From Gracilaria vermiculophylla (taxonomy: Eukaryota > Rhodophyta > Florideophyceae > Gracilariales > Gracilariaceae), in contig JAHNZQ020000004.1 in NCBI GenBank assembly GCA_019155205.2, forward strand, positions 1,204,153 through 1,268,152: 64,000 bases of DNA, given 5' to 3'. Shown piece after piece: positions 37,936 to 45,582 of this stretch (the first letter of the stretch is position 1; the number at the start of each line of letters is the position of its first letter). A program made the position numbers and the translations under genes. A model generated the notes under the pieces. The model was not told the DNA's origin. It saw nothing but the letters and a program-made list of their open reading frames with translations, and searched no databases.

Positions 37936-38643
37936 CAGCGACGACGACAGCGACGGCGACAGCGACAGCGACGGCACGAGACGCGACGCACGCCTCCAAC
38001 GCGCGCGCGGCGCGTTCATATGGTTGAGCAGGCGCACAGTGCGCTTGGTGTCGTCGTGATTGAGGAACTTGAGCGGGGCGGCGATACGGTTGAGGATGTT
38101 GGTGGTGACCGGGTACACAAAGGTGTTGTGCGGGACGCGCGGCAGGCGGTGGTGCTTGGAGACGTTTCTGGCGGTGGTGTACCAGAAGCTGGCGGCGGGA
38201 TCGTGCTTTCTGGCCATGGTGCGCAGATCCCGCGCCCATGCGGCCAGCAGGAGGGGCGCCGAGGGCACGGCGGGCGGGGGGTCGGGGTGCAGCGTGAGCC
38301 TCCAGAAGTGGCGGAAGAAGGCGGGGGAGGCGATGTAGCGATAGAAGTAGGGGATGCACAGCACGAGCTTGTGGAGCAGCTGAAGGGGGTGGGCGGGGTT
38401 GAGCAGCGGCCTGGTGCGGGCGGGGAGGAGGTAGCGGCGGATGGCTTGGACGATTGCGGGAATTGAGGCGGGATCGGTGTAGGCGATGAGGATGAGGTTG
38501 CTGGAGGAGAGGGGGACGTCGGGTGAGCGCACGAGGTGGGTGATGGTGTGTCGGGTGGGGGGGCGATGCAACCTGTGGAGGGGGGGGAGGGGGATGGCGC
38601 GGGCGTCGTGGGCGAGCATGGAGTGGTCCTGGATGCGGCGCAT
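37219..38643 (-). CDS. VHS/ENTH-like trafficking protein (tentative)
   Basis: A 474-residue protein. Residues about 25-125 read like a VHS domain: SNLILIAYTDPASIPAIVQAI, HPLQLLHKLVLCIPYFYRYI, SPAFFRHFWRLTL and LLLAAWARDL follow the helix pattern in which VHS proteins place whole-chain adaptor counts. Residues about 225-265 are Ser and Pro homopolymers made by TCG and CCG triplet runs. Near residue 365 lies a Cys cluster (CDGGNCCVCNKDEC) that could bind zinc. The C-terminal 90 residues are helical, ending Ala/Arg-rich. VHS domains bind ubiquitin or sorting signals on endosomes, which would fit with the clathrin light chain in this window, but the match here is by pattern only. It could equally be an ANTH/ENTH relative. 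Confidence 0.5.
37848..37965 (+). repeat. Triplet runs inside the VHS-like gene
   Basis: GAC/ACG triplets at 37848-37883 followed by GGC triplets to about 37935. On the minus strand they code for Ser and Pro runs. Confidence 0.88.
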
Positions 38644-39356
38644 GGTGGGGGGGGGCGGGGGGGGAGCTGGAAGGGTATGGGCGGCATAGCGGGGGGGGTG
38701 TTGATGGCGGTGGGGAGGGGCGGGGAGGGGGGGGGCTGCTGCGAGTGGTGGGCTATAGCGTCGCGGCGTTTTTTTTAGCGCGGCGACAACGTGTATCTAC
38801 CAGGGGGATCCGCGCGCGTGGCGGCCAGAGGTCGCGAGACCGGCGCGCGCCGGCTTACGCCTTTCGGGTGGTGGCGGCGCGGCGCGCGCGGCGCGGCGCG
38901 CGCGCGCCGCTTTGCGCGCGGTCGTGCAGCATCGCCATACGTACGGCGCGTATGGCACGTCGCGACGCTCGCGCGCTCTTCATCTTCCCTGACGTGTATG
39001 CGCGTGCCTCCCGCTGTGTAAACCGCGCCGCCGCCGTCGCGCCGCCCTCCATGCGCCCCGCCGCGCCTTGCTCCGCCTGGCGCCGCCGCGCAACAGCAGC
39101 TTTCCCCGCGACTCAATTCAGCGCGCGCGCATCAATTCAGCGCGCGCCATGTCATCGCGCGCGCAACCCTCGCCCCTTCACCGTCCCTGCCGCGTCATAC
39201 CTCCGCGCTCTGCGCAGCACGCCGCAACGTTCCGCTGCCGCGCCGCGCCCCCCCGTAACGGCCGCTTTCCTTCAAACGCATCCACACTTGCGCCTGCGCC
39301 GCCAGCCCGCGCCCGTCGTCGCCCCCGCCTTCCGCCCGCCGCTGCTCACCGCCCAA
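38644..39356. other. Divergent region, VHS-like and PAM2-protein genes
   Basis: About 710 bases. G runs on the + strand lie directly upstream of the VHS-like ATG (38645-38735). The PAM2-protein frame stays open through much of this region, so an earlier start (ATG at 38952 or 39051) is not excluded. Confidence 0.4.
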
Positions 39357-41285
39357 ATGAGCGCGCACGCCCCACCACGCTCGCGCCCGCCGCGCACCCC
39401 CCTCAACCCCGCCGCCGCACACTTCGTGCCGCGTGGCGCCGCGCGCATTCCCGCACCTCCGCTAAACCCAAATGCGCCCCCATTCGTCCCAGCGCCCGTC
39501 CGCCCCCACCACACCGCCGCGCCCCATCACACCGCCGCGCCGCTCGCCGCCGCCGCCCCACGCCAGCCCGCTCCACAGCAGCTCAGCCCCCAGCCCGCCA
39601 GCCGCGCACCCCCCGCGCGCCCCCCCCTCGATCCGCGCGCCCGCCAGTTTCTTCCGCACCCAGCGCCCTCTGCTCTGCTGGCGCGCCGCGCGCCGCGCGC
39701 CGAAGCCCGCCTCGCGCCCAATTCACCCCAAAACGATTCTTCAAAGCAGTGCGCCCGCGCCCCGCACGCCACCGCGCACCACCGCTCCGCCAAACACCCG
39801 TGCCGCGCCGCGCCCCGTCGAGCTGCCGCCGCCTTCAAGCCCCCCGAACAGCGCCCACGCCTCGCCGACCACGCGCCCAACCCGTCTGCAGCGCCCAGCA
39901 GCAACAGACACAGCTCCAGCAGCAAGCCCAAAGCTGTGCACGCCACGCTCACTTGCGACGGCGCCCGTGCTGTCAGCGCCAGCGCGCGCCCGCGCGCCGC
40001 TTGCTCCGTCTCTGCCGAACAAAGTGACTGCTTTCTCCAAGCAGAGCAAGTTGATACGTGGGCAGTCATAGACAGCTCGCCCACCGAAAACGATTCAAAA
40101 TGGGCTGATTTGCGCCACCTCCTGCAACATGCATGTCATGCTGGCCAAAGCAACAACAACCAAGCAAAAAATAACCCGGCACCACACCGGAACAACCCAC
40201 CGGATAACGCAAACAACCCGGTCGAAAGCCATTGCGATGGAGAAAATGCTGCACAACTCATGCCACTCAGTCAACAAGCAACAGCCGAAAGCACCTCAGT
40301 TGCTACGAGAAATGGCACCTGCAGCTCTAGCGAACCCGCCGTTGCTGACGGATGGGGCGGCGCAGAGAGCATGGCGACGCACGTTGATTCTGCATGGAAT
40401 GATCACGTGCATGTCTGGCGCGCAGCCGATTTTGCCGTGGAGCACGATATACGTAGAAATAACGGACGCGGGGCTTCAAACCAAACGACGCGAATAGCGG
40501 CCAATGGAAAGAAAGGTATGAAAGCTCAAGGTCAGAGGAGAACCTTTAAAAATAATCGAACACATGAAGGCCCCCGCCATGAACAGGCTTGCCAGGATTT
40601 GAATGCAGAAAACAAACAGCGCTGTGCCAACAGAGACAAACCGGGCCGAGCTTGCAACACGGCATTGCACAAGAGTAAAGAGGGAGAAACCCATGAGAAC
40701 GAAAATTTTGCACATTTCTGGAACAAGTGTACAACGCTAGAATCATGGGACGAAGCTGATTGCGACAGCAAGAGCGAACCTGCAAATCGTGATGCCTGGG
40801 AAGCAATTGAGAAGGAGGACGCATGGGGTGGCGAGTCGGGCCCTCAGCTCGACGGGCTACAAGACTTTGGTGGAAAACAGAATTCCTGCTCAAGCCGTGC
40901 AGTGCAATCAGAAAGTGGCACAAAACAAGAGCATAACACCGACAATTCTGTCCAAAAGCAGAGCACAACGTCGGCAGGCGATTGTGCTTGGCAATCTCAG
41001 AAAGGGGGGGAGTCTCTGAACAAGTCGGCGTCTGACCCCATGACTTCTAAGGCTGCGTTGGAGAGGAGGCGAGCACGGTTCGAATGTGATGAAAAAAGGT
41101 ATCGTGCCGAGGCCAAGTTGGCTGCGGAGGACAAAAACTTGGGCAGCGTGCACGTGAAGGAAACCGAGGTGAAACAGGATGTGTGGGCTCTGGCAGTGAC
41201 GCAAGCCACTGGAACTGACCAAGCAGCAGACAGGCGCCCGACTGCCGCTCGCGTGCAGGTCACCTACGACCTCAGCGACGTTTAG
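39357..41285 (+). CDS. PAM2-motif, tryptophan-rich RNA-regulatory protein
   Basis: A 642-residue, mostly disordered protein with no folded domain seen. Three motifs fit the PAM2 consensus LxPxAxxFxP that binds the MLLE domain of poly(A)-binding protein: residues 15-25, 35-45 and 90-100 (PLNPAAAHFVP, PLNPNAPPFVP, PLDPRARQFLP). The middle and C-terminal part holds 11 isolated tryptophans (235, 249, 333, 347, 354, 455, 464, 481, 490, 545, 610), many next to Asp, Glu, Ser or Gly (DGWGG, ESWDEAD, DAWGGES), often 9-14 residues apart. Such W/GW patterns bind Argonaute or CCR4-NOT in GW182. A basic helix lies at about 565-590. The start was set at the ATG before the first motif. Confidence 0.75.
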   Translation: MSAHAPPRSRPPRTPLNPAAAHFVPRGAARIPAPPLNPNAPPFVPAPVRPHHTAAPHHTAAPLAAAAPRQPAPQQLSPQPASRAPPARPPLDPRARQFLPHPAPSALLARRAPRAEARLAPNSPQNDSSKQCARAPHATAHHRSAKHPCRAAPRRAAAAFKPPEQRPRLADHAPNPSAAPSSNRHSSSSKPKAVHATLTCDGARAVSASARPRAACSVSAEQSDCFLQAEQVDTWAVIDSSPTENDSKWADLRHLLQHACHAGQSNNNQAKNNPAPHRNNPPDNANNPVESHCDGENAAQLMPLSQQATAESTSVATRNGTCSSSEPAVADGWGGAESMATHVDSAWNDHVHVWRAADFAVEHDIRRNNGRGASNQTTRIAANGKKGMKAQGQRRTFKNNRTHEGPRHEQACQDLNAENKQRCANRDKPGRACNTALHKSKEGETHENENFAHFWNKCTTLESWDEADCDSKSEPANRDAWEAIEKEDAWGGESGPQLDGLQDFGGKQNSCSSRAVQSESGTKQEHNTDNSVQKQSTTSAGDCAWQSQKGGESLNKSASDPMTSKAALERRRARFECDEKRYRAEAKLAAEDKNLGSVHVKETEVKQDVWALAVTQATGTDQAADRRPTAARVQVTYDLSDV

Positions 41286-41523: not shown

Positions 41524-44500
41524 ATGATTTCCCCCCACCAAAAGGGCCTGCTCTTCGACTCCTCGTCCGCTCCATCTGTGAAACATGCCATGAACGCCCT
41601 GCAAGAAGCCGCTCAATCTCCTGCGCAGCCATCTGCCAGCGAGTCGCTGCTATGCACCCCATCTACCATCGCGACCCCCGCGCGTCTTCAGCCTTCACAC
41701 AAGCCTTTTGTATCTCCCCAACCGCGCAGTGTCGATCTTCACTTCCCATCCTCCAGCCAGGTCTCCCCTCTCACGCAGATCTTTCGAAGCAATTCCACTA
41801 ACATCAGCTCGCAAGTGCGCCTGAAACCATCACATCTAAAGCCACCCTTGCCGTCTCCGAGCCGCACACCTAGTTCCAATGGTAACAAAGTTGTGGCTAC
41901 TCCATCCCCGGCTCCACCATTGCGAGTAAGAAACGGAGAGTCCACCACTCCCCACGCACCGTCGCCTTCGCCCCAATCCGATGGCTTTGCATCACCCTCG
42001 GTGCACGATCACATTCCCGCAACTTTCTCTGCTGTAAAGACGCCAGGCTCGAATCCCATCGTTATTCAGCCTGAAAACTCTCCCTCAACAAGTGAGAAGA
42101 AACAGCTCTCAAAGGAGCAAGACCCCGAAATCCTGGCGTCTTTCTTCAAAATGCGGAGTGCGAAAATGCTCTCGCCGCTCGGGCATCAATCCAAAAGGAG
42201 GCCAATAAATCTTACCAGGGTAGATGTCAACGTCAATCCGCTCGCAAGCACCAAGGAAGAGGCTTCTGAGATTCCTCGAAACGTACCAGTCGATACCGTG
42301 CTCAACGTACCATTCAGTCTCTCCTATGGATTTGAAGAGGCTCTTGAGGTGGACTTGGGATGCAGGGCGAGTCGTGTTCCCCTGCCGTATGCCATAAACG
42401 TTTTCACTTTTGATTTAGACGGGTCTATAAAACCGTATTCCGCTCGCCTTGAACGGGACCCAGATGACAAAGCAAGCGTGTTGGTTGATTTTATTGACCA
42501 GGAGGTTGCATTTTCTCCTGTGCAAGACGAGGATAATGACCTCACAAGTCCGGTCACCGATGCTCTTGAGGAAGCATGCCTTGTCTTCTGGGCCGCTCCA
42601 GACGCCCATGCAGAGAAGGGATATGATAGATTTGTTCTCATAGTGACAGACGAATATGGAAAAGAGTTTGAAACTAATATTGAAATTCGTGTCCGAAAGA
42701 CCGAGCCAATTATTTCCGTGGAGACTGAAGACGAGGTTCCTGATGTGTCAAGGACCGAAACTTTTATTGATTTCCCGCCAGGTCACCAGTATGCGGAGAA
42801 ATCGGTGACAATTTGGAACAATACAGAGGGCGGTGCTCCTCTATTGCTCAACATTCTAATGAGAGATGGAGCATCTGGGGTGTTCTCTATTGGACGAGAT
42901 TCGGATGATCCCGAGGTTTGCATCCCCATGTATATTCGGTCCGGTGATTCTTGCGCTTTTTCGGCAAAGTTTCAACTCGTGCCGGAAGCTCCGATCGATC
43001 ATGAGTACTTTGGTTTAGCCTTAATTAAGTACGCAACCATTTTGCCCTCTTCCGTCAGTCCAGAAGATGATGCTGAATTATACCACGCTTATGACCATGT
43101 GCTTAACTTCACGGCAACTAGTGCAACATTATCAGCTGATCATAATCCAAATTATGAAATAACGCGGCCCATCAATCCAGAGGATGACAAACTGCAAGAG
43201 CATAGATTCTGTCACCCCGAGTCTACATTTCATCCAGATGCGAATTGTGTTCTTGAACATTGTAAGGAATCTGTGTTTCCGGAGTCTACTGCGCCAAGTT
43301 CTTACGGGGAAGAAAACTACATCGAATCTTGTGGTGAATTACACAGAGATCTGAAGAACACCGAAACCAACGGAACGAAGCCGCAGAATTTTAAGAGTTT
43401 CAGTATGGAGCCTCTCCCAATTCATGTACCACCAGAGGCTATTGAAGAAGTTCCAACTGACGCCAGAAAACCGGCGGAATATTGTAAAGTGTTCCTACAT
43501 CAACCTCCAAAATGGGTACCTGGTCATGACGGCAAAGGAAAGATATCCTCCGTAAACTATACTCAAGACAAGACTGCATCAGAAAACAAGGTCTTCGACA
43601 ATGCTTCAAAAAACCACAACTCATTGTCAGTCAACGGGCACAGGAGTTCCCGAAGCAATCATCGATCTTATGTTTCTGCTAGCATGGCGGAACGATTGAA
43701 AAATTTGACACAGAACAAAGTTCACAGCCAGAGCAACTTGGGTCCGAACTGCGCCAAGCCAGCCTCTAAGGTCAAGGGTACGGGAGGAGACCCACGTGGG
43801 TCTCAAATTCATGCGAATATCCGGCTTTCAAGTGATGGAATTTTAAAGCCGAAGGAGGAACTCGTAAATTCTATGGAGGCTGAAAACGATCGAGCAACGG
43901 AAGGCAATATGATATCCTCTCTTGGAGAAAGCCATGGCAAAAATCGTGGAAACGGTGTTGAGGCAGATAGGATTGAAAGCGTTGTTTCTCATCAGAAGGG
44001 AGCAAATCCATCTGGCAAAGATCCGTCTTTACGAGAACGATCAAAGAACTCTCAAGGCAGTGCTGAGAATGCTCAAAACTTCCAGAGGCGTGAATCTCCG
44101 AGCGCATTTGAGTATGGCATACAGCACATGAACAGCACAGAACACACTGAAAGGGTTTCGCACCAGAGCTTTTCGACTGCCAAAAGCGCAGAGGACGGTA
44201 GAAGGTTTTTCGGTTTCAGAAGACTTGCGAAGAATCGCAAACCCAAGATTAAGATGCCTCGGAGTATAAGAGAGAATGGCGTTCGGATTCGTGCAGCCTG
44301 TGGATCAGCACTACTTCCGTTGTTTAACGCCTCATCCTCCTCCATACATGTGAGCCTAGAGGTTAAGAAATATCCTGGTTCAAAGGCCGCAGCGACAGTT
44401 AGCCACAAGATGTTAGCTCTAGAACCGCAGCAGCGAACTAATGTTATTATCACTCGCATGTCTTCAAAAGAGGGTCATCTGAGAATCATTATTTCTGGTT

Positions 44501-45582
44501 ATCTGCGAGGTCCGGTCAAGCTTTCCACTGTTTATCATGTTCCTCTTTTTGTTGAGGAAAGCTTGAGTCGGGTACCAGCTGCGACGGGTTTTGCCGTGGA
44601 CAGGCCCACCATCACTTTCTACGACATGCAGTCCAGGTATCAATATCAGAATATGAGGGTATTGAACGGGACCTACAGGAGAGTGCCTTATAAGGTTTGG
44701 CTCGGGGACTCTAAGGATTCGAAGAGTGGCTGCGATGACAATGTGCTGGCAATAATGTCGAATGGAGAAGGCACTGTAGAAGGTCGGAAATGTGTTTCGG
44801 TGCAAGTAAGATTCGATTCTAGTCATCCAGTGCAGCACTACAGACAAATGCTGCACATATCTATGGATGGCAGCAGGGATAAGGTACCAATTTTCGCATA
44901 CACTGGTAGTTCTTCCATTCGAATCACGCTGACAAAGGAAGGGCTGTTTCATGCAGAGAATCATGGGAATCGAAGTGGATTTGTGGTCCTATCTGGCCCG
45001 GAGGTTGATTCAAAAGACAACATGACAGAAAAAGTTGTTTTGCTCCCGAAGCAACACAGGGAGCTGGTAGCCCCTTACGGATCAGGGACACTTATCTACA
45101 CTGGAGATGAGATTGCTCGCTCGAGGTTCTGTCACGCTGTGACGCTTGTGCCGAACGCCAAACTAGAAGGCGGTGAAGAAATGTGTCTGTTCCTCGGCGC
45201 GTTCGATGGGGAGGAGGGAGCTAAGCAAAAAGAACAGCTGGTTTGGGATCTCGACACAGAGCATTCGCTACATTATGCAGGAAGATTGCTTGGGAACAGT
45301 GTGTGCCGGTATAAGTATGATGCCGATGAACGGCGAATAACCAAGGACAGCAAGCGCTCGAACGACTGTGGGTGGCAGGCTTCAATTGATGCGGACGGCT
45401 ACGTGCACATTGAGAATTATGACACACAGAAGTTTCTGAACTTCAAATGCAAAGGAGCCGAACCCAAGTATGGAAAGATCCCGCCTTTGGGGGATGCAAA
45501 ACTGGCCGCTTTCTTGGAGAACATTGAAGTGTACGCTCGTGGTATGTGTGTGGAGTTGTACAACGAGCGAAGATATGATTAA
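41524..45582 (+). CDS. Large MSP/ASH-like immunoglobulin-fold protein
   Basis: A 1352-residue single-exon protein. Residues 1-190 are Ser/Pro-rich. Residues about 235-400 and 405-535 look like beta-sandwich domains; the second (FIDFPPGHQYAEKSVTIWNN, then APLLLNILM) has the pattern of an MSP/ASH domain. Residues 540-900 are disordered and charged. Residues about 905-1300 form two or more further beta domains: LLPLFNASSSSIHVSLEV, and ITFYDMQSRYQYQNMRVLNGTYRRVPYKVWLG. ASH/MSP arrays are found in centrosome and cilium proteins such as SPD-2/CEP192. Red algae lack centrioles but have polar-ring organising centres, so a spindle-pole role is an attractive guess, no more. Start is the first ATG, eight codons after an in-frame stop region. 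Confidence 0.65.
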   Translation: MISPHQKGLLFDSSSAPSVKHAMNALQEAAQSPAQPSASESLLCTPSTIATPARLQPSHKPFVSPQPRSVDLHFPSSSQVSPLTQIFRSNSTNISSQVRLKPSHLKPPLPSPSRTPSSNGNKVVATPSPAPPLRVRNGESTTPHAPSPSPQSDGFASPSVHDHIPATFSAVKTPGSNPIVIQPENSPSTSEKKQLSKEQDPEILASFFKMRSAKMLSPLGHQSKRRPINLTRVDVNVNPLASTKEEASEIPRNVPVDTVLNVPFSLSYGFEEALEVDLGCRASRVPLPYAINVFTFDLDGSIKPYSARLERDPDDKASVLVDFIDQEVAFSPVQDEDNDLTSPVTDALEEACLVFWAAPDAHAEKGYDRFVLIVTDEYGKEFETNIEIRVRKTEPIISVETEDEVPDVSRTETFIDFPPGHQYAEKSVTIWNNTEGGAPLLLNILMRDGASGVFSIGRDSDDPEVCIPMYIRSGDSCAFSAKFQLVPEAPIDHEYFGLALIKYATILPSSVSPEDDAELYHAYDHVLNFTATSATLSADHNPNYEITRPINPEDDKLQEHRFCHPESTFHPDANCVLEHCKESVFPESTAPSSYGEENYIESCGELHRDLKNTETNGTKPQNFKSFSMEPLPIHVPPEAIEEVPTDARKPAEYCKVFLHQPPKWVPGHDGKGKISSVNYTQDKTASENKVFDNASKNHNSLSVNGHRSSRSNHRSYVSASMAERLKNLTQNKVHSQSNLGPNCAKPASKVKGTGGDPRGSQIHANIRLSSDGILKPKEELVNSMEAENDRATEGNMISSLGESHGKNRGNGVEADRIESVVSHQKGANPSGKDPSLRERSKNSQGSAENAQNFQRRESPSAFEYGIQHMNSTEHTERVSHQSFSTAKSAEDGRRFFGFRRLAKNRKPKIKMPRSIRENGVRIRAACGSALLPLFNASSSSIHVSLEVKKYPGSKAAATVSHKMLALEPQQRTNVIITRMSSKEGHLRIIISGYLRGPVKLSTVYHVPLFVEESLSRVPAATGFAVDRPTITFYDMQSRYQYQNMRVLNGTYRRVPYKVWLGDSKDSKSGCDDNVLAIMSNGEGTVEGRKCVSVQVRFDSSHPVQHYRQMLHISMDGSRDKVPIFAYTGSSSIRITLTKEGLFHAENHGNRSGFVVLSGPEVDSKDNMTEKVVLLPKQHRELVAPYGSGTLIYTGDEIARSRFCHAVTLVPNAKLEGGEEMCLFLGAFDGEEGAKQKEQLVWDLDTEHSLHYAGRLLGNSVCRYKYDADERRITKDSKRSNDCGWQASIDADGYVHIENYDTQKFLNFKCKGAEPKYGKIPPLGDAKLAAFLENIEVYARGMCVELYNERRYD

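Follow-up and report, generated by a model that had tools for sequence, protein, structure and literature searches.

A predicted PABP-docked, tryptophan-rich adaptor with three PAM2 motifs in the red alga Gracilaria vermiculophylla

Which partners would be served by a protein that carries three PAM2 motifs at one end and a series of isolated tryptophans at the other? The question is raised by an open frame of Gracilaria vermiculophylla at positions 39357-41285(+) (P0001) of the window, meaning the whole stretch of 64,000 nucleotides that was analysed. The frame encodes 642 aa plus a stop, with a PAM2-rich N-terminus and a W-rich C-terminus, and the original prediction read the product as a possible GW182-like scaffold linking PABP to Argonaute or to deadenylases. 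Outside animals, the way in which Argonaute silences mRNAs in the absence of GW182 is little understood.

The frame is already open from position 38544 and further in-frame ATGs lie at 38952 and 39051, leaving the true start codon uncertain. Across the W half, 13.8 stops are expected by chance and none is seen, and none of 5000 simulated sequences stayed open in any of the three forward frames; the W half is a real reading frame. For the GC-rich N-terminal part, 3003 of 5000 simulated sequences were free of stops as well, thus its openness is uninformative and it is the PAM2 motifs that carry the case there. As no stop lies between the PAM2 motifs and the W half, a ribosome translating the former would continue into the latter, barring an intron. 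In the available text of PMC10388701, 70.6-76.6% of genes in Gracilaria species have no intron, which is in line with a one-exon structure for the PAM2-W gene. Synonymous codon usage was dropped as a coding test since it fails to separate frames in this genome; the reverse-strand frame outscored the real frame both in the W half (0.053 versus -0.004) and in the neighbouring gene (0.025 versus 0.002). Frame length and codon-position GC, the latter being 0.59/0.49/0.52 in the W half, were used as coding evidence instead.

The N-terminal half of the frame sits at the end of a 24-kb tract (16001-40000) with 57-83% GC in 2-kb steps, compared to 44-61% in the remaining window, and its Ala/Pro/Arg composition tracks this local enrichment. 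Many GCG/CGG-type tandem arrays and long overlapping open frames are also found in the tract. On the other side, the adjoining 1352-aa frame (41524-45582) gave weak, below-cut-off matches to the Ig-like domains of Cep192 and CFAP65, which is odd for a lineage without flagella. On a larger scale, the PAM2-W gene, PAN3 and one of the Argonaute genes (L004) lie within approximately 212 kb of each other on one contig (G000:C17:1243509, 1392422 and 1455037, respectively), which may be a coincidence. This contig comprises 5,157,289 bases, and the V sex chromosome of G. vermiculophylla is given as 5.14 Mbp in the available part of PMC12502185; the likeness is one of size only.

The original prediction of three LxPxAxxFxP matches within 100 residues proved accurate, with motifs beginning at residues 16, 36 and 91. 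These are LNPAAAHFVP (residues 16-25; 39402-39431(+)), LNPNAPPFVP (residues 36-45; 39462-39491(+)) and LDPRARQFLP (residues 91-100; 39627-39656(+)). All three copies have the Leu and Phe of the PAM2 motif, each follows a proline (PLNPAAAHFVP, PLNPNAPPFVP and PLDPRARQFLP), and together they span 85 residues. Chance is ruled out as their source by shuffles, simulations and genome-wide counts. When residues 1-110 were shuffled, three motifs appeared in 0 of 200,000 trials and at least one in 0.41%, while Markov DNA simulations of positions 38600-40000, read in six frames, produced at least two motifs in one frame in 0 of 4000 cases and at least one motif in 33 of 4000. A loose PAM2 DNA pattern matched three sites in the window, all of them in this gene, compared to a mean of 0.22 and a largest count of 2 in 100 shuffles. 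Across the genome, searched as 44.8 Mb in 27 contigs, a stricter pattern matched nine sites, three of which are found here, and a backward control pattern matched one. The other six strict sites are distributed over an ataxin-2-like gene (one), a repeat protein read as nucleoporin-like (L022; one), a DPDAI-repeat frame (L028; one) and frames of at most 59 codons (three). The three copies in the PAM2-W frame spell the same motif residues with different codons, making them unlike a recent DNA repeat. The Pfam PAM2 model (PF07145) recognized copy 2 alone, at 17.9 bits and an E of 0.0025 in the protein scan, which is below the cut-off of 20 bits, and at 15.2 bits and an E of 1.63 in the genome search; PAM2 was the only entry listed when the 642-aa protein was scanned against Pfam at E<=1.

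A cognate MLLE domain is present in the same organism. One such domain was detected in the genome, on PABP (104 bits). As with the other partners, the genome was searched by scoring top-ranked candidates in each frame, and intron-split genes may have been overlooked. The algal MLLE domain shares 51 of 82 residues with PABP1 chain 7bn3, and its helix reads KITGMLLD where that of the chain reads KITGMLLE. With PAM2 motifs on the one protein and the sole detected MLLE domain on the other, docking on PABP through a PAM2-MLLE interaction is well supported, and the sequences of both sides predict it with high confidence. PAM2 is also carried elsewhere in the genome by an LsmAD protein, which is ataxin-2-like, and by a protein of DUF1771-Smr type. 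In the PAN3 frame (L029), a degenerate PAM2-like stretch, SPLAAEFIP, can be read by eye near the N-terminus.

The remainder of the protein contains 11 tryptophans, and each of the positions named in the original prediction is correct. Trp235 and Trp249 are spaced 14 residues apart (40059-40103(+)); Trp333, Trp347 and Trp354 form a second group that includes DGWGGAE (40353-40418(+)); Trp455, Trp464, Trp481 and Trp490 are located in an acidic stretch that includes DAWEA and DAWGGE (40719-40826(+)); and Trp545 and Trp610 follow (40989-41186(+)). Within the clusters the spacing is 7-17 residues. A basic stretch with a net charge of +8 (residues 361-400; 40437-40556(+)) separates W clusters, and could possibly contact RNA. 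After residue 215, a boundary picked after the sequence had been seen, Trp accounts for 11 of 427 residues compared to 0.78% in ten control proteins from the same genome (p 6.6e-4), and for 11 of 20 aromatic residues compared to 10% in the controls (p 7e-7), which makes it the commonest aromatic of the region. Over the whole protein, W content is 1.7%, about equal to that of the highest single control (1.69%); the notable point is therefore the occurrence of W within a part that is poor in F and Y. The acidic flanks ascribed to the tryptophans are modest. Asp or Glu occupies position -2 in 6 of 11 cases (p 0.0026, with eight offsets and two residue classes tried) and 21 of the 88 positions within 4 residues of a Trp (p 0.019), no strong consensus is seen, and Gly follows Trp in just 2 of 11 cases.

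The tryptophans had also been placed in a disordered region. The single-sequence AlphaFold model has a mean pLDDT of 41.8, with 539 of 642 residues below 50, and such low confidence is what disorder predicts; it fits a disordered chain, although a model of this single-sequence kind cannot prove disorder. On the same basis, the GW182-type feature of multiple Trp in a disordered chain is seen here, with 11 Trp in a chain of low pLDDT. The only ten-residue blocks with a mean pLDDT above 70 cover residues 571-590, inside a predicted charged helix (residues 565-594; 41049-41138(+)) that is hardly amphipathic. This helix was considered as an amphipathic CAF40-binding helix and rejected, as its helical moment is low (0.05-0.24).

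Searches for relatives returned none. With the whole protein, no homologue was found at E<=1 among the best 7985 candidates by shared words, and with residues 415-642 none was found at E<=1 among the 995 candidates scored. As these searches ranked candidates and were confined to proteins between 0.55 and 1.75 times as long as the query, they could overlook a relative that is unannotated, split or fused. The protein database does include close relatives of the alga, with Argonaute L003 being 81% identical to a protein of Agarophyton chilense and 73% identical to one of Gracilaria domingensis, which places the alga among the Gracilariales; its genome also has 11 matches to phycobilisome linker domains. 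The PAM2-W protein is either unannotated in the relatives, very fast in its evolution, or species-restricted. This absence of a homologue is the main weakness of reading the protein as an adaptor. A search of the alga's own genome for a second copy returned the gene itself alone. Scanned against Pfam at E<=1, the protein gave no match to Ago_hook (PF10427), TNRC6-PABC (PF16608), UBA or RRM. Neither PF10427 nor PF16608 was found in the genome, a weak result as no control genome gave a match to either model. With no GW182 domains in the Pfam scan and no homology detected, membership of the GW182 family is not borne out. In the literature searched, including the available text of PMC12026948, no algal PAM2-W protein is named, which does not imply absence from print.

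Possible partners for deadenylation are encoded in the genome. The algal NOT9 is identical at 191 of 245 aligned residues to chain 9jnl, which we take to be human CNOT9, and a PAN3 gene is present. In the available text of PMC12819147, the groove of Not9 and its Trp/aromatic pockets are described as having many residues that are invariant in eukaryotes and as being contacted by Trp-containing motifs. Judged by the overall identity of the algal protein, NOT9 would be the most likely point of contact for the tryptophans. For a PABP-docked, W-rich adaptor, the CCR4-NOT route is more likely than the Argonaute route.

Three Argonautes (L003, L004 and L005) are present in the genome, two of which keep the positions of the catalytic tetrad, and of six RNase III matches, four are paired in two frames of approximately 1750 codons, which are taken as Dicer-like from their sequence. 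The Trp pockets were aligned for nine L003-type Argonautes, namely L003 and L004 together with seven taken from 63 database matches to Argonaute. The hAGO2 positions P590, R688, C691 and P700 are kept in all nine, E695 and Y698 are kept in none, and all nine have H, Y and W in place of V591, L650 and F653; positions 591, 650, 653 and 698 are presumed to line the pockets. At position 660 a Lys is aligned in eight of the nine and no Phe is found at 659, but the alignment at 659-660 is ambiguous owing to an insertion of two residues, and a separate pairwise alignment gives Phe and His instead, with K660 pairing with His. Two plant Argonautes aligned in the same way keep K660, E695 and Y698. Argonaute L005 is without P590, E695 and C691 and keeps Y698 and P700. 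L005 (1-2556) also has changed catalytic positions (D597T, D669N and H807D in hAGO2 numbering) and is probably not a slicer. As to the role of these positions, C691 and P700 are parts of pocket 3 of human Argonaute in the available text of PMC9262622, and combined mutation of K803, E838, P733 and F802 in ALG-1 abolished AIN-1/AIN-2 binding (PMC5147811, available part); by constant offset, we infer these four to be K660, E695, P590 and F659 of hAGO2. The GW interface varies in AGOs of fungi and of the PIWI clade, and in plant AGO10 a Trp probably blocks one of the pockets (PMC12477606, available part); the main text of that source, as available, is without the words Rhodophyta or algae. As aligned, the animal-type Trp interface of the algal Argonautes appears only partly kept, and a distinct red-algal interface is possible. 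As several of the animal AGO2 Trp-pocket positions are changed and others kept, the case for Argonaute binding is weakened, and putative binding by the W part is doubtful. The scaffold originally predicted thus draws support from the PAM2 motifs, the MLLE domain, the W-rich part with its low modelled confidence and the partner genes, but its link to Argonaute has lost ground through the pocket changes.

As an independent GW182-like scaffold, the protein would attach through its Trp clusters to PIWI in at least one of the algal Argonautes, and would so connect small-RNA targeting with PABP and deadenylases. GW182/TNRC6 proteins and the algal protein are alike in combining PAM2 with scattered Trp in a disordered chain, and Argonautes, PABP, NOT9 and PAN3 are all found in the algal genome. 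The layouts differ, as TNRC6 has one variant PAM2 in its C-terminal silencing domain, whereas the algal protein has three consensus-like PAM2s at its N-terminus, such that the order of PAM2 and W is reversed, and shows no UBA, RRM, Ago_hook or TNRC6-PABC match in its Pfam scan. The two Argonautes with tetrad positions, the Dicer-like frames, the close spacing of Trp within clusters, the resemblance of DGWGG and DAWGG to WG/GW hooks, and the four invariant pocket positions together with the Lys aligned at 660 all favour this scaffold, and yet it is unlikely in view of the missing E695 and Y698, the three replaced positions, the ambiguity at 659-660, the paucity of Gly after Trp, the lack of an Ago_hook match in the protein, and the variability of the GW interface in PIWI-clade and fungal AGOs (PMC12477606, available part). 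Somewhat more probable, though on balance not expected, is a plain PABP partner in which the PAM2 motifs matter and the tryptophans either have no role or are meant for a different partner such as trafficking adaptors, as in mRNA transport of the Upa2 type. Plant CID/ERD15, Paip and TOB-like proteins are examples of plain PABP partners, and those of the CID/ERD15 type have a similar LNPNAPxFVP-like PAM2 and are not known to have a W-rich region.

The near-consensus PAM2 motifs suit a plain PABP partner, as does Upa2 of Ustilago maydis, whose layout, compared by description, is the closest known in combining several PAM2s in one scaffold with a Trp motif. According to the available text of PMC9249222, Upa2 has four PAM2s, dimerises, and bears a C-terminal GWW that is crucial for endosomal binding; the algal protein differs in that its 11 Trp stand apart and GWW is absent. 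Its Pfam scan showed neither FYVE nor any other domain for trafficking, and the strong enrichment of W over F and Y is not what incidental tryptophans would give. Far less probable is that GC-rich sequence gave rise to the PAM2 half as a side effect, and that this half and the W half do not belong to one translation product. Its place at the end of the GC-rich tract, its readiness to be open by chance, the absence of a homologue and a codon usage that does not single out the frame are all compatible with this, but three PAM2s stand in one frame with different codons where simulations never produced even two, and the lack of a stop from the motifs to the W half means that a ribosome runs on unless an intron intervenes.

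The preferred reading, which is held tentatively, is that of a disordered adaptor docked on poly(A) tails via PABP, with the W part directed to CCR4-NOT and deadenylation promoted. The three N-terminal PAM2s would bind the MLLE domain of algal PABP, and having three of them might increase avidity for a tail that bears several PABPs. The W-rich C-terminal part would make weak, repeated Trp contacts, most likely with the aromatic pockets of NOT9 and perhaps with PAN3, and the outcome would be promoted deadenylation of the bound mRNAs; Argonaute may be a further partner, although not the favoured one. In its mode of action such an adaptor would resemble GW182 or the Puf3/TTP-type adaptors, although its membership of the GW182 family is not supported. 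In the Puf3/TTP-type CCR4-NOT adaptors, similarly, tryptophans of a disordered region are expected to engage NOT9 at its aromatic pockets (PMC12819147, available part), but these adaptors possess an RNA-binding domain, whereas Pfam lists none here and attachment to mRNA would go through PAM2-PABP. Several PAM2s need not be essential, as mutation of all four in Upa2 abolished MLLE binding and left endosomal mRNA transport unaffected (PMC9249222, available part).

A bolder and decidedly unlikely extension is that red algae evolved a GW182-type scaffold independently, in which the Trp clusters would hold CCR4-NOT and an Argonaute with an altered PIWI pocket (His/Tyr/Trp at 591/650/653) at once, allowing small RNAs to shorten tails. 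Even with PABP and CCR4-NOT as its sole partners, the protein would be an adaptor for tail shortening with a layout that is new. A PABP-docked, W-rich scaffold in a red alga with Dicer-like and Argonaute genes would make it possible to ask if the combination of PAM2 and Trp has evolved repeatedly, and if a deadenylase, not Argonaute, was the partner it started with.
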